Under the pieces are notes generated by a model that saw only the letters and a program-made list of their open reading frames with translations, searched no databases and was not told where the DNA came from. The position numbers and the translations under genes were made by a program. From Flavobacterium piscis (lineage in GTDB: Bacteria; Bacteroidota; Bacteroidia; Flavobacteriales; Flavobacteriaceae), in the NCBI RefSeq assembly GCF_001686925.1, contig NZ_LVEN01000027.1, forward strand, positions 496,001 to 560,000: a stretch of 64,000 nucleotides of DNA, given 5' to 3'. Shown here in pieces: positions 18,139 through 21,828 of the stretch (positions are counted from its first letter, which is position 1; the number at the start of each line of letters is the position of its first letter).

Positions 18139-18744
18139 ATGAAAAACAACAACAATAGTAATCGTTCTTTAGCAGTAAAATCATCATCTTTCAAAAATAA
18201 AGCGGTAAAATTAGTGCAGCAGCTTTTTTATGCATCGGCATTTATCCTTTTATTTTCAGCATGTTCGAGTGATGATGGAGGATCTGATGAAAATAAATCA
18301 GACTATTACTTTAGAGCAAGCGTTGGGGGAAGAAAAATAGATTTTCGTACGGCAAAATTTCAGGGCGGAGGTAATGATGATCGTTTTGAAATGATTGTAG
18401 TGGGAGGATTTGACGGACCGCATCCGACTAAAGCTGGAGAAGTAATGCCGCCATCATTAGATTTTGAAATATGGAGAGTAGGCGGCAACATTACAGCAGG
18501 TACTTATTCAACACCTGCCGAACTGGAAATGATGGGCCGATATGCGATTCAGACTAAAGACGGAACCATACTTTATAACACCGCTATAGGCGACGATCTT
18601 TTTACAGTAAAAATTGAATCCATAAGTAAAAAAGGCATCAAAGGAACATTTGAAGGAACAGTGCGAAATGTGTCATCAGGTGAAACCATTAGTATTACCG
18701 AAGGTACTTTTAATCTTCCGTATGATCAGATTGTGAACCCTTAA
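18139..18744 (+). CDS. Hypothetical lipoprotein
   Basis: A 201-residue protein with an unusually long basic N-region followed by a hydrophobic stretch and a lipobox (ILLFSAC, lipid-bearing Cys about residue 42). The residues after it, SSDDGGSDE, fit the acidic surface-export signal described for Flavobacteriia lipoproteins. The mature domain (about 60-200) is beta-rich, with VGGRKIDFRTAKF, IVVGGFDGPHP, WRVGGNITAGTYSTP and a C-terminal SITEGTFNLPYDQI. I recognise no named family. A shorter start is possible at a later codon but none is compelling. It ends with its stop overlapping the stop of the convergent IlvN-like gene. Confidence 0.65.
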   Translation: MKNNNNSNRSLAVKSSSFKNKAVKLVQQLFYASAFILLFSACSSDDGGSDENKSDYYFRASVGGRKIDFRTAKFQGGGNDDRFEMIVVGGFDGPHPTKAGEVMPPSLDFEIWRVGGNITAGTYSTPAELEMMGRYAIQTKDGTILYNTAIGDDLFTVKIESISKKGIKGTFEGTVRNVSSGETISITEGTFNLPYDQIVNP

Positions 18745-19247
18745 TCAGTTAATTGGAAAGATTCACTGTTCATAGTAAGGGCAATTCTGGCACTTTTTAT
18801 ACATTCGATCAATTCAAATTGCTTTAATGCGACAATTAGATTATTAATTTCTTCTTCTTGTCCTGTAACTTCAAATATGGTGTAATCTTTTTCGATTGTT
18901 ACATATCGGGCGTTGTATTTTCGAAACAACAAATCTGTATTTTCGGGATGGATTACACTAGAGGTTTTTACCTTAAATAATGCCATTTGCTTCCAGACGA
19001 TTGCTTCGTTTGTGTTGTAATAACACTGAAAAACCTCAATAACTTTTTCGATTTGAAGCGCTACATTCCTTACGATTTCGAAAGTCTCGTTTAGAACAAG
19101 TGTAAAACGGTACATTTTATCCATTTCAGAGGTGGAAATATTAAGGCTTTCCAGAGTTATTTTTCGTCGGGAAAGGATTACGGTGATTTTATGCAGTACT
19201 GCCATTTGATCTTCTGTGTAAACGGTTAAGGTGTATTCTTTTTTCAT
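18741..19247 (-). CDS. ilvN: Acetolactate synthase small (regulatory) subunit-like ACT protein, stand-alone
   Basis: A 168-residue cytoplasmic protein with the two-part layout of acetolactate synthase regulatory subunits: an N-terminal ACT domain (YTLTVYTEDQMAVLHKITVIL, KITLESLNISTSE, MYRFTLVLN; about 4-78) and a C-terminal ALS-SSU domain (MALFKVKTS, YVTIEKDYTIFEVTGQEEEINNLIVALKQF; about 88-160). In the family it binds branched-chain amino acids and controls the catalytic subunit IlvB. Here it has no ilvB, ilvC or ilvD neighbour. Its leader holds two tandem Ile-rich leader peptides with terminators (19312-19569), which independently supports a role in branched-chain amino acid metabolism. It may be a second, divergent regulatory subunit. 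Confidence 0.8.
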   Translation of the reverse strand: MKKEYTLTVYTEDQMAVLHKITVILSRRKITLESLNISTSEMDKMYRFTLVLNETFEIVRNVALQIEKVIEVFQCYYNTNEAIVWKQMALFKVKTSSVIHPENTDLLFRKYNARYVTIEKDYTIFEVTGQEEEINNLIVALKQFELIECIKSARIALTMNSESFQLTD

Positions 19248-19311
19248 TTGAAATCTAGTTATTATTGGAGTTTATTTGTTTGATATTTTAATGCCTGAGT
19301 TTGCCGGAAAT

Positions 19312-19349
19312 AAAAAAGCCTTTCTCATTTTGACTGAGAAAGGCTTTTT
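19312..19349 (-). terminator. Attenuator terminator 2 of the ilvN leader
   Basis: The 11-bp stem AGCCTTTCTCA / TGAGAAAGGCT (19335-19345 with 19317-19327 as read leftward) is followed by a T-run on the minus strand. It lies between leader peptide 2 and the ilvN-like start, as in a translational attenuator. No gene ends directly before it other than the leader. Confidence 0.8.
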
Positions 19350-19376
19350 ATTAGTACACAATAGAATCCTGTCCCG

Positions 19377-19433
19377 TCAGAAAAGACGAATAATAATAAT
19401 TGTGCTAATATTATTTTGTGCTGAATTTTTCAT
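19377..19433 (-). CDS. Isoleucine-rich leader peptide 2 (MKNSAQNNISTIIIIRLF)
   Basis: An 18-codon frame, too short for ordinary gene calling, that contains four successive ATT (Ile) codons near its end. The Ile codons overlap the ATTGTG arm (19399-19404), which can pair with CACAAT at 19357-19362 just before the terminator. Stalled translation at Ile codons would therefore change folding. This is the standard logic of amino-acid attenuators. The start has an A-rich upstream stretch (AAATAAAC). Expression has not been shown. Confidence 0.7.
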   Translation of the reverse strand: MKNSAQNNISTIIIIRLF

Positions 19434-19446
19434 GTTTATTTTAAAA

Positions 19447-19475
19447 TAAAAAAACCTCCCAAAGAGGGAGGTTTT
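19447..19475 (-). terminator. Attenuator terminator 1 of the ilvN leader
   Basis: On the minus strand AAAACCTCCC pairs with GGGAGGTTTT and is followed by TTTTATTTT. It follows leader peptide 1 by about 40 bases and precedes leader peptide 2. The word AGGGA at about 19505 could pair with TCCCT in the stem as an anti-terminator. Confidence 0.8.
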
Positions 19476-19515
19476 AAATGTATCTGTGTACTTATTTATA
19501 TAACATCCCTGATCA

Positions 19516-19569
19516 TTATCGAATGATAATAATGCTGCTAATAATAGAGATGTTAATTAAGTTTGTCAT
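19516..19569 (-). CDS. Isoleucine-rich leader peptide 1 (MTNLINISIISSIIIIR)
   Basis: A 17-codon frame with eight Ile codons, four of them consecutive just before the final Arg and stop, as in leader peptide 2. The Ile codons lie in a hairpin (ATTATC-ATTC-GATAAT) that a stalled ribosome would open. The ATG is 20 bases after a TAcaTTTG box. It has the same ending pattern (IIIIR) as leader 2, pointing to duplication or convergent selection. Confidence 0.7.
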   Translation of the reverse strand: MTNLINISIISSIIIIR

Positions 19570-19588
19570 TTTCCTTATTGATGAGCGA

Positions 19589-19596
19589 CAAATGTA
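19589..19596 (-). promoter_or_regulatory. Possible -7 box TAcaTTTG for the ilvN leader transcript
   Basis: It is an exact match to TAnnTTTG, 20 bp before leader peptide 1. No TTG is seen at the -33 distance, so the promoter call is tentative; the TonB receptor gene ends only 58 bp upstream. Confidence 0.4.
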
Positions 19597-19653
19597 TTGA
19601 TTTTTATTAAACAGTTTACTTTGAAAGAAAAAAAGTTTAGTTCGAGACAAAAA

Positions 19654-21828
19654 TTAGAATGCCTGTGCAAAACTAATGGTCAGGCGCGTACCGTTTTCTT
19701 TAACATAATTCATATTATTAGACTGCCATTGCGAAATAACAGAATAATAATCTTTGTTGAATAAGTTTTCGACTCCCAAACGAATGGTACTTTTTTCCCT
19801 GAAAGTATAGCTCGAAGAAAGATTAAAAGCCGTGAAAGATTTTATAGGCCCTGTTCCGTACGTATAGGCACCATTTACAGGTTCAAACTTATCCCTGCCT
19901 GATGTATTGATCATTTGCAGAAAAAGCGACCAGTTTTCTAAAGGTCTGAAAATGGTATACGCTGTTAGTTTTGGCGGATTGATTCGGTCCCCTCCCAAAT
20001 ATACTTTTCTGTCTGCAAGTTCACGTTTTCCTTCTGTAAAGGAATAATTTGCTCCAATATCAATTTTAGAATGAAGGCGGTATTTAGCTGCTACTTCAAA
20101 ACCATAAATCTTTTCAGGTGAACGAGAAATTTGCGGATTTCCATCAACATAAACATAAGAAGCACCTAATTTGGATGTGCTATAATAAACAGCGCCTTCA
20201 TAAGAAAATTTATCCAAAGCTCCTGAGAATCCAAATTCGTAATTATTGGCCGTAACTGCTTTTATCGAAGTATTGTTTACGGTGTTTTCTTTGGCAGCGC
20301 GTAGTACCAAACCTAAATCGGCAACGCTAAAACTTTGGGAGAAACTTACAAAAGGTTTAAACAAAGCCCATTTTGTATAACGAAGTCCGGCATTGAACAT
20401 GAAGGCATTAAAATCAAGAACTCCGCCATTTACAGCAATTCCGCCGCCAACATAAGTTCCGTTTACATAATTACGAATACCAATAGTGGTATAATCCGGC
20501 ACATCGATATTTACATTTTCAAGTCTTAAACCTGTTTTTAAAACCAAATTGGGACCAAACATGTTTTTAAGCTGAAAATACGGGGCTAGATTCGTCATAT
20601 TCATTTCAGGAATGACCAATCTGCCATCTGTAAGGTGCGTATCGGTTATATCCGAAAGTATATCCAATCCGTACGTTATATTACCTGATATAAGAGGACT
20701 GAATTCGTATGGCGTGTTTAAATTCAAACGAAAACCCAGCTTCTTGCTTTGTGTAGCCGGTTGTCCGTTATTTTCAAAAAAATCACTGTAGTTAATCAAA
20801 GTGAGATAGTCCTGAAAGTAAAGTGTGGCATTAATATCTGTATTCCCAATTATATTTTCTCCGTTATAACTTAAACTTGCGTTATGGTTATAAGGCGTTC
20901 CTTCAGGATCTCCGGGGCGTTGTCCTTTAACTCCCGTAGTTGGCGAATCAAAATTACCGTAAACTCCGGCTTTTGCAATATAATCAGTATGCTGTGTACT
21001 ATTAAAATAATTGTACATCAACTCTATGCGGTTATTGGTATTGATATCGTAACCAATTTTTGCAAAAGCATTCCAGTTTTTTAGATCATTCATTCCGTAT
21101 TCCGGAGAAAGTACGCGCCCTTTGGCATCGCGATATAATCCCGTTTCTTCATAACGTCCGCTTACCACATAATCGATCTTGTTTACTTTTCCGGAAAATA
21201 GCTGAGAGACAAAGAAACCGGCTGTCCCTTTAGATTTTACAAGAGAGAAATTAGTTCCTGCCTCAGTAGATCCGCTTATGGTTTTGTCGACATTTGCCTT
21301 TTTTGTAATATAATTAATCAAACCGCCATCTGCACCATTACCATAAATTGCAGTTGCTCCCTTAATTACTTCTACACGGTCTAAAACAGTAGGATCCAGA
21401 GAGCGCATATCTTTGGCTCCGTCTCTAAGCGGTGTAGATTGCGGAATTCCGTCAATCATGACCAATACACGTCGGCCTCGTAAAGTCTGACCTAAATTTT
21501 GAGTTCTGTTAGTCGAAAAACCAAGACCGGGTACAGATGCGCCCAGGATATCGCTAAGATTAGAACTTATATTGAGTTGTTGCTGTATTTGTTTTTTAGA
21601 TAAAATAGTAACCGATGAAGGCACTTCGTTTAAGATTTCCGGTTGTCTGGAAGCAGAAACTACAATTTCTTTCAATTCGTTATCAGTTCCCGAATTATCC
21701 GGTACAATACTGTCCTGAATTTTGATATTTTTATCTTTTGCAGTATTTGTATTCGTTTTGGAAATTTCCTGTGCAGAAAGAGAATTTAGTATGAAGAATA
21801 TGAAAAGTAGGGGAGATATTTTTATCAT
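19654..21828 (-). CDS. TonB-dependent outer-membrane receptor (siderophore/metal-chelate type)
   Basis: A 724-residue receptor with a signal peptide (about 1-19, ending SAQE), a plug domain (about 50-170: EIVVSASRQPEILNEVPSSVTILSKKQIQQQL, RGRRVLVMIDGIPQ, DRVEVIKGATAIYGNGADGGLINYIT) and a beta-barrel to the terminal Phe (LTISFAQAF). It lacks the SusC-type carboxypeptidase-regulatory N-terminal domain and has no SusD partner, so it belongs to the classical FhuA/IutA-like group rather than to glycan uptake. The Tyr/Asn-rich C-terminal barrel segment YTFREKSTIRLGVENLFNKDYYS is typical. Siderophore or metal-chelate uptake is inferred. No clear Fur box is seen. Confidence 0.85.
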   Translation of the reverse strand: MIKISPLLFIFFILNSLSAQEISKTNTNTAKDKNIKIQDSIVPDNSGTDNELKEIVVSASRQPEILNEVPSSVTILSKKQIQQQLNISSNLSDILGASVPGLGFSTNRTQNLGQTLRGRRVLVMIDGIPQSTPLRDGAKDMRSLDPTVLDRVEVIKGATAIYGNGADGGLINYITKKANVDKTISGSTEAGTNFSLVKSKGTAGFFVSQLFSGKVNKIDYVVSGRYEETGLYRDAKGRVLSPEYGMNDLKNWNAFAKIGYDINTNNRIELMYNYFNSTQHTDYIAKAGVYGNFDSPTTGVKGQRPGDPEGTPYNHNASLSYNGENIIGNTDINATLYFQDYLTLINYSDFFENNGQPATQSKKLGFRLNLNTPYEFSPLISGNITYGLDILSDITDTHLTDGRLVIPEMNMTNLAPYFQLKNMFGPNLVLKTGLRLENVNIDVPDYTTIGIRNYVNGTYVGGGIAVNGGVLDFNAFMFNAGLRYTKWALFKPFVSFSQSFSVADLGLVLRAAKENTVNNTSIKAVTANNYEFGFSGALDKFSYEGAVYYSTSKLGASYVYVDGNPQISRSPEKIYGFEVAAKYRLHSKIDIGANYSFTEGKRELADRKVYLGGDRINPPKLTAYTIFRPLENWSLFLQMINTSGRDKFEPVNGAYTYGTGPIKSFTAFNLSSSYTFREKSTIRLGVENLFNKDYYSVISQWQSNNMNYVKENGTRLTISFAQAF

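Follow-up and report, generated by a model that had tools for sequence, protein, structure and literature searches.

Serial isoleucine-coded attenuator units precede an orphan gene for an AHAS regulatory subunit in Flavobacterium

In Flavobacterium piscis, the gene for a second AHAS small subunit lies behind two predicted leader-peptide attenuators placed in series, each of which carries a run of isoleucine codons followed by a terminator. We consider it probable that these serial isoleucine attenuators drive an altered small subunit that replaces, or competes with, the operonic IlvN on the sole AHAS. Comparison of sequences between genomes supports the anatomy of the locus, its conservation, the covariation of its stems, its co-control with ilvA and the change at the effector site. 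From these we infer that both units respond to isoleucine and multiply in effect, that subunits are exchanged and valine sensitivity is lowered, and that the only AHAS receives a less valine-sensitive subunit when isoleucine runs short.

The window, i.e., the whole stretch of DNA that was analyzed, covers 64 kb of the 5.9 Mb Flavobacterium piscis genome (contig 27, positions 496001-560000). A TonB-receptor gene, a -7 box, unit 1, unit 2, and the orphan ilvN follow one another on its minus strand (Table 1). The orphan ilvN stands alone, because its downstream neighbor (18139-18744, at its 3' side) is on the other strand, and no ilvB adjoins it at the locus. Both leader frames, with four Ile codons each, agree letter for letter with those of the original prediction, which had been made from the DNA sequence, and both terminators are present where it had placed them. 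On neither strand of the 64 kb does any other ATG frame with a length of 12-40 aa contain four consecutive isoleucines. A riboswitch or other known RNA family was ruled out, the window having no Rfam match at the curated threshold (the best sub-threshold match, Phe_leader, reached 31.6 bits against a gathering value of 55), and a mobile origin was ruled out as well, the leader having no plasmid match and the protein no phage match. A consensus sigma-70 scan returned 8 hits in 18700-19800 (shuffle mean 4.8), which were left unused because this consensus is ill-suited to this phylum.

Table 1. Features of the tandem-leader locus in the window (strand 1, 2, and 3 denote the pairing strands of each unit).
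Feature	Position	Strand	Remarks
TonB-receptor gene	19654-21828	-	same direction as the leaders; stops 84 bases before leader 1
-7 promoter box, TACATTTG	19589..19596	-	consensus TAnnTTTG, flavobacterial sigma-A; 57 bases past the TonB gene
Attenuator unit 1	19447-19569	-	leader frame and terminator
Leader peptide 1, MTNLINISIISSIIIIR	19516..19569	-	sequence; homologous unit in 53/53 loci
Unit 1 strand 1, TAACATCTCT	19546..19555	-	partner is strand 2; pairing and covariation
Unit 1 hairpin over Ile codons and stop codon	19512..19533	-	likely RNA polymerase pause hairpin
Unit 1 strand 2, AGGGATGTT	19502..19510	-	antiterminator strand; partner AACCTCCCT at 19465-19473
Terminator 1, AAAACCTCCCTCTTTGGGAGGTTTT and T-run	19447..19475	-	stem 19451-19475, T-run to about 19447
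Attenuator unit 2	19312-19433	-	leader frame and terminator
Leader peptide 2, MKNSAQNNISTIIIIRLF	19377..19433	-	sequence; homologous unit in 53/53 loci
Unit 2 1:2 hairpin (CACAAT...ATTGTG, CGTC/GACG)	19357..19404	-	
Unit 2 strand 2, TGACGGGACAGG	19368..19379	-	antiterminator strand; starts at the leader stop codon
Unit 2 strand 3, CCTTTCTCAGTCA	19331..19343	-	5' arm and loop of terminator 2
Terminator 2	19312..19349	-	family alignment; absent from consensus scan output
Orphan ilvN	18741..19247	-	168-aa paralogue of the AHAS small (regulatory) subunit

A covariance model of unit 2 built from ten species (R1) matched 71 of 398 Flavobacterium genomes at E 1e-3, in a search whose filters lose weak matches, and 70 loci were read from 67 of these genomes (the weak matches in G314, G243, G094, and G230 were left out). 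The units are followed by ilvN alone at 34 loci, by ilvN-ilvA at 17, by ilvB-ilvN-ilvA at two, and by ilvE-ilvD-... operons at 17, with ilvN inside the stretch examined in 15 of the latter; IlvA and IlvE of these loci reach NCBIfam cut-offs. All 53 loci of the three shorter kinds (50 genomes) gave exactly one match per unit model under the E limits applied, a count that includes the ten rows of the models, which are bound to match. Flavobacterium sp. SLB02 also has the two leaders. Two genomes hold several tandem-leader and ilvN copies, three in G289 (L057, L062, and L070, the last with ilvA) and two separate ones in G393 (L073 and L091). Among the full operons, three units were found by model hits in six of 17 (L099, L100, L101, L105, L107, and L112). 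Across the family, R1 matched 47 of 397 genomes at E 0.01, two of them within Flavobacterium; of the 45 positive genomes from other genera, 28 were inspected, by eye and from short-frame lists instead of model tests, and at 16 of the 28 loci ilvE, ilvD, or ilvB is preceded by two or three leaders rich in Ile/Val. Since two or three units thus precede whole ilv operons, tandem units are widespread in Flavobacteriaceae, and the rarity that had been claimed for double attenuators of the same code does not hold. The accompanying statement that such units do not stand ahead of a biosynthetic operon is right for this locus, where they precede ilvN alone, but not for relatives, where they precede ilvN-ilvA, ilvB-ilvN-ilvA, or ilvE-D-B-N(-C-A).

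By family model and predicted fold, the orphan protein is an AHAS small subunit, which confirms the IlvN-like assignment of the gene behind the tandem units. It scores above the cut-offs of TIGR00119 (77.3 bits, cut-off 56.9), PF10369 (53.9 bits, cut-off 23.2), and PF22629, and below those of PF13710 (24.1 versus 27) and NF008864 (90.1 versus 119). The AlphaFold2 model (pLDDT 85.9, pTM 0.57) has its best fold matches in yeast, Arabidopsis, and bacterial AHAS small subunits (6wo1, 6vz8, 2f1f, and 2fgc), with a TM of about 0.5 over the two domains. The valine site of E. coli IlvH comprises N11, N29, and other residues (Kaplun 2006, as cited in a passage of PMC11893703), as well as G14 (a passage of PMC13158618); the orphan IlvN has D, A, and T at N11, G14, and N29, respectively (E. 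coli IlvH numbering). N11 and G14 are both kept in none of 51 orphan or ilvN-ilvA proteins versus 47 of 47 operonic IlvN (a set in which the main class is covered by 30 of 49 sequences), and the combination N-G-N or N-G-S at the three positions is likewise found in 0/51 versus 47/47. Taken singly, N11 is kept in five of the 51, G14 in 25, and N29 in 12. The changed site is no proof of insensitivity, given the 25 proteins that keep G14 and the case of C. glutamicum, where, according to part of PMC11893703, the wild type has Asp at the N11 position and a valine-inhibited AHAS, and D17E confers resistance, from which it follows that the wild type, with Asp, is sensitive.

The genome encodes a second ilvN, 32% identical to the orphan, within a leuA-leuB-ilvD-ilvB-ilvN-ilvC operon whose leuA, leuB, ilvD, ilvB, and ilvC reach curated NCBIfam cut-offs and which has a single mixed leader, MMQISIIITSVVVVNVFSTSASGMV, before ilvD. 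This main ilvN is present in all 49 reduced-locus genomes tested, at 87-100% identity to that of F. piscis, and among 23 protein matches, 13 look operonic by eye. At E 1e-90, 31 of 32 genomes have one ilvB, and G108 has a second, 38% identical. The ilvA gene lies elsewhere (contig 6, 36065-37306) behind a single Ile unit, with the leader end MKNLNIIIISINIIAIQH, that was found by the unit-1 model (R2) at E 1.9e-12; a single Ile attenuator precedes ilvA at all 30 loci read from 32 orphan-bearing genomes. Given the changed effector site and the single AHAS catalytic subunit, the orphan most likely replaces or competes with the valine-sensing IlvN. It is unlikely, in our judgment, that the changed effector site accommodates a different ligand (isoleucine or a keto acid) or that the protein acts on IlvA instead of AHAS; such a role would fit the adjacency of ilvA in 17 loci, the shared Ile attenuation, and the diversity of the residues replacing N11, G14, and N29, but by fold and family the protein belongs with the AHAS small subunits, and the replacements differ between clades, which resembles loss more than the gain of one new ligand.

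In a midpoint-rooted tree of 79 rows, which has several long branches and whose bootstrap had not completely settled, the proteins of all reduced loci group with six full-operon ones in a single clade (100/100), from which ten main operonic IlvN are set apart (100/100). The full-operon and ilvB-ilvN-ilvA rows lie outside the rest of this clade with moderate support (81/83, 83/84, and 95/71). This placement suggests operon reduction, and the lone ilvN is probably a remnant of an older ilv operon; the series of full operon, ilvB-ilvN-ilvA, ilvN-ilvA, and ilvN resembles an operon that contracts towards its leader and holds on to the regulator longest. That the orphan is a passive relic of that operon, without a special role and with attenuators merely inherited, strikes us as quite unlikely. 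The orphan IlvN does evolve much faster than the operonic one (66-89% versus 96-99% identity to the F. piscis copy in the eight nearest genomes), and ilvN is shortened to 142-146 aa in 12 of 17 ilvN-ilvA loci. However, 11 of 12 close pairs have dN/dS values of 0.09-0.27 (the remaining pair, at 0.49, shows very few changes), the listed ilvN frames contain no in-frame stops, the leader is under strong structural constraint, and G289 and G393 have retained three loci and two, respectively. The short, fast-evolving IlvN found right before ilvA (L068, L074-L077, L081, L086, L089, L095-L097, and L102) has Lys at the N11 position in 12/12.

In unit 2, helices 1-3 of the 1:2 hairpin are paired in 85.5, 97.4, and 93.5% of cells, with six pairs changed on both sides, and terminator 2 is paired in 92.1% of cells, with 8 of 14 pairs changed on both sides; the consensus scan did not report terminator 2, whose stem absorbs most of the T-run. 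Taken together over 51 distinct rows, hairpin and terminator are 91.8% paired versus 41-54% when slid, and 14 of 28 pairs have changed on both sides (neither value was equaled in any of 500 shuffles); in both units, the alignments of hairpins and terminators were fitted to those structures, and these counts lean towards them. The antiterminators, and strands 1:2 of unit 1, are pairings outside the models used for alignment. The unit 2 antiterminator is paired in 85.7% of cells versus 33-54% when slid, and it shows little formal covariation (a single pair with changes at both positions, a number reached by 274 of 500 shuffles); the terminator arm hardly varies. Its strand 2:3 duplex is better than dinucleotide shuffles in 53 of 53 loci (mean z -1.96). 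When partners were swapped between species, the own partner was matched by 0 of 2000 swaps for strands 1:2 and by one of 2000 for strands 2:3, in a test that is alignment-free and still contains the relatedness of the species.

Unit 1 has the same parts, with a weaker antiterminator. Terminator 1, which the consensus scan did pick up, is paired in 98.5% of cells over the 53 loci, and the hairpin over the Ile and stop codons in 92.6%, with seven of nine pairs changed on both sides; the two together (alignment of 53 rows) are 95.7% paired versus 39-60% when slid, with 10 of 19 pairs changed on both sides. Strands 1:2 are paired in 76.8% of cells versus 40-58% when slid, and here eight of ten pairs have changed on both sides (five of 500 shuffles gave as many), and the own partner was better than the species-swapped ones in every case (0/2000 swaps as good). 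The antiterminator is paired in 72.7% of cells versus 37-66% when slid, shows no covariation beyond shuffles, and has a strand 2:3 duplex that is better than dinucleotide shuffles in 51 of 53 loci (mean z -1.49) and that partner swaps between species do not distinguish significantly (398/2000). With both units at 53 of 53 loci and compensatory changes in their stems, the conservation in relatives that had been proposed as a check is in place. The alternative stems of the original prediction, ATTATC/GATAAT and CACAAT/ATTGTG, are also present, but they are not the real switch, which in each unit is a third pairing (19502-19510 with 19465-19473, and 19368-19379 with 19331-19343). Because the ATTATC/GATAAT stem lies beside strand 2 and not on it, it resembles a pause hairpin; the anti-antiterminator of unit 1 is likely the pairing of the early leader with strand 2.

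The leaders were folded at 28 °C, before the 3' arm of the terminator is made and with an assumed ribosome footprint of 14 nt from the P site on. With the ribosome on the Ile codons, unit 2 then forms a mean of 6.2 antiterminator pairs, compared with 1.1 when the ribosome stands at the stop codon (the former value is higher in 53 of 53 loci); for unit 1, the corresponding means are 6.1 and 3.3 (higher in 45, equal in seven, and lower in one). Without a ribosome, the two units form 3.3 and 3.9 pairs. In the window, the predicted fold of unit 2 amounts to -14.0 kcal/mol stalled versus -0.6 at the stop, and that of unit 1 to -11.5 versus -2.8 kcal/mol. These models point to a classical switch between a ribosome on Ile and one at the stop, clean in unit 2 and less clean in unit 1, where the antiterminator partly forms even when the ribosome has reached the stop or is missing. 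In each of the three states, the minimum-energy fold of the full RNA of the window's two units retains the terminator, which means that switching has to be kinetic, as it is in classical attenuators.

Ile runs of at least three codons are found in 52 of 53 leaders of each unit, and T-runs of at least five follow the 3' arm in 52 of 53 loci for each unit. The 827 Ile codons of the leaders (53 loci) comprise 585 ATT, 215 ATC, and 27 ATA, those of the ilvN genes (68 loci) 635 ATT, 355 ATC, and 382 ATA of 1372. Leaders rich in ATT and ATC and poor in ATA presumably fit the sensing of GAU tRNA-Ile; the avoidance of ATA may alternatively be due to the stems, which favor ATT and ATC. The pN/pS ratio of unit 1 is 0.53 in frame versus 0.80 and 0.70 in the other frames, and that of unit 2 is 0.67 in frame versus 0.73 and 0.49 elsewhere, which gives no clear coding signal by pN/pS in the unit 2 leader; RNA pairing also constrains these bases. 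We regard it as improbable that unit 2 alone works as an isoleucine attenuator, unit 1 being a copy that has weakened or a pause or terminator element that mainly blocks read-through. The weaker antiterminator of unit 1, which partner swaps do not separate, would agree with this, as would five species (L018, L058, L064, L078, and L085) in which the unit 1 frame extends across strand 2, so that there unit 1 must act otherwise or not at all. Against it stand the presence of unit 1 at 53 of 53 loci, the strong covariation of its strands 1:2 and hairpin, and the homologous single unit that stands by itself before ilvA in the F. piscis genome (E 1.9e-12).

The motif TAnnTTTG, the sigma-A -7 box of F. 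psychrophilum according to TSS mapping (a section of PMC9723704), occurs within 80 nt 5' of the unit 1 ATG at 53 of 53 loci, at 0 of 53 between terminator 1 and the unit 2 ATG, and at 0 of 53 inside unit 2. Two of 53 loci have it inside unit 1, and two (L080 and L088) have it past terminator 2 but before ilvN, both of the latter boxes being inside ilvB; these places are taken as chance. In the window, a promoter at 19250-19310 had been named as an argument against attenuation of ilvN; in a search for the -7 box type alone, no TAnnTTTG was seen there. The DNA upstream of the -7 box is dissimilar between species by eye, while both units persist. A reading in which the hairpins serve as ordinary terminators for the TonB-receptor gene, with Ile runs that arose by chance in AT-rich DNA, has next to no probability of being right and was rejected on the conservation of both units: the TonB gene is codirectional and ends close to leader 1, but a -7 box lies between it and unit 1, the sequence before this box is unalike between species that keep both units, and the 64 kb holds no further leader of this kind.

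In the mechanism we propose, one transcript would start just upstream of 19569 and traverse the two leader-peptide transcription attenuators in series. With ample charged tRNA-Ile, the leader ribosome would reach the stop codon and cover strand 2, and the terminator would form; with scarce Ile-tRNA, the ribosome would stall on the Ile run, and the free strand 2 would pair with the 5' arm of the terminator, allowing read-through. Because both units must be passed, read-through should multiply, giving a low leak and a steep response; the response to isoleucine may be steeper or two-step, as originally suggested. The gene induced would be the second AHAS small subunit, with ilvA released in trans by an Ile attenuator of its own, and the orphan subunit would keep AHAS working for isoleucine under isoleucine shortage. 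More tentatively, and as a possibility we would not favor at present, Flavobacteria may obtain an isoleucine-specific AHAS by regulatory-subunit exchange, a valine-blind subunit being made on isoleucine starvation only and ilvA being co-released. If so, valine-induced isoleucine starvation would be cured by a subunit swap on a single AHAS, a suggested answer to the old problem of one valine-inhibited AHAS and isoleucine starvation in which the regulatory subunit is switched and not the enzyme.

The E. coli ilvGMEDA and ilvBN operons are controlled by leader-peptide attenuators whose leader peptides contain branched-chain codons. The C. glutamicum ilvBNC attenuator, as described in part of PMC11857589, shares the terminator, antiterminator, and anti-antiterminator. 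Unlike these ilv systems, the locus studied here has two full Ile-only units before one regulatory-subunit gene. Salmonella mgtCBR, the precedent for tandem attenuators, likewise has two short leader frames in one RNA, each affecting transcription of the coding region, and these answer different signals (ATP and proline) and are additive, according to a portion of PMC3641672; here, in contrast, both leaders are coded for Ile and stand before two intrinsic terminators that should multiply. Within the genus, strong clues for leader-peptide attenuation before amino-acid biosynthesis operons come from F. psychrophilum (PMC9723704, in part), in a main text that contains neither 'ilv' nor 'isoleucine' and, in the parts covered, does not mention tandem units. 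E. coli AHAS II has a small subunit that lacks the conserved glycine and escapes valine feedback inhibition (a passage of PMC5727371); E. coli thus has a whole second enzyme, whereas here there is a second small subunit only, with one ilvB in 31 of 32 genomes. We found no account of tandem isoleucine attenuators or of this ilvN in the open-licence literature, and little literature on leader-peptide attenuation in this phylum. The locus offers a natural, conserved case of serial attenuators with the same code (two, and three in some operons), in which removing one unit would allow measurement of whether serial attenuators lower leak and sharpen the response.

Several other leaders were observed. 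Three serial attenuators precede ilvE-ilvD in L100, L101, L112, and L159-L161, with a mixed Ile/Val leader 1 followed by two mainly Ile ones, possibly a two-signal logic. In two loci of other Flavobacteriaceae (L174 and L182), the same RNA model matched short leaders with four consecutive His. The F. piscis genome itself has a tryptophan leader, MKTLMNNTWWWKNLRQTS, with a hairpin on contig 44 (233881-234034; L123), and the frame downstream, a 151-aa piece, matches anthranilate synthase component I (TIGR00564, 193.8 bits). On contig 12 (38748-38908; L124), a Cys/Met-bearing leader frame (...YYSCSIMCCATMRW...) and a terminator-like hairpin precede metN (TIGR02314, 549.7 bits, above cut-off). On contig 13 (183038-183187; L125), the leader frame MKFTVCNMMSCKMPEFSAETLL, a hairpin, and a T-run stand before an apparent TonB-type receptor gene, possibly a Cys/Met attenuator on an uptake gene.
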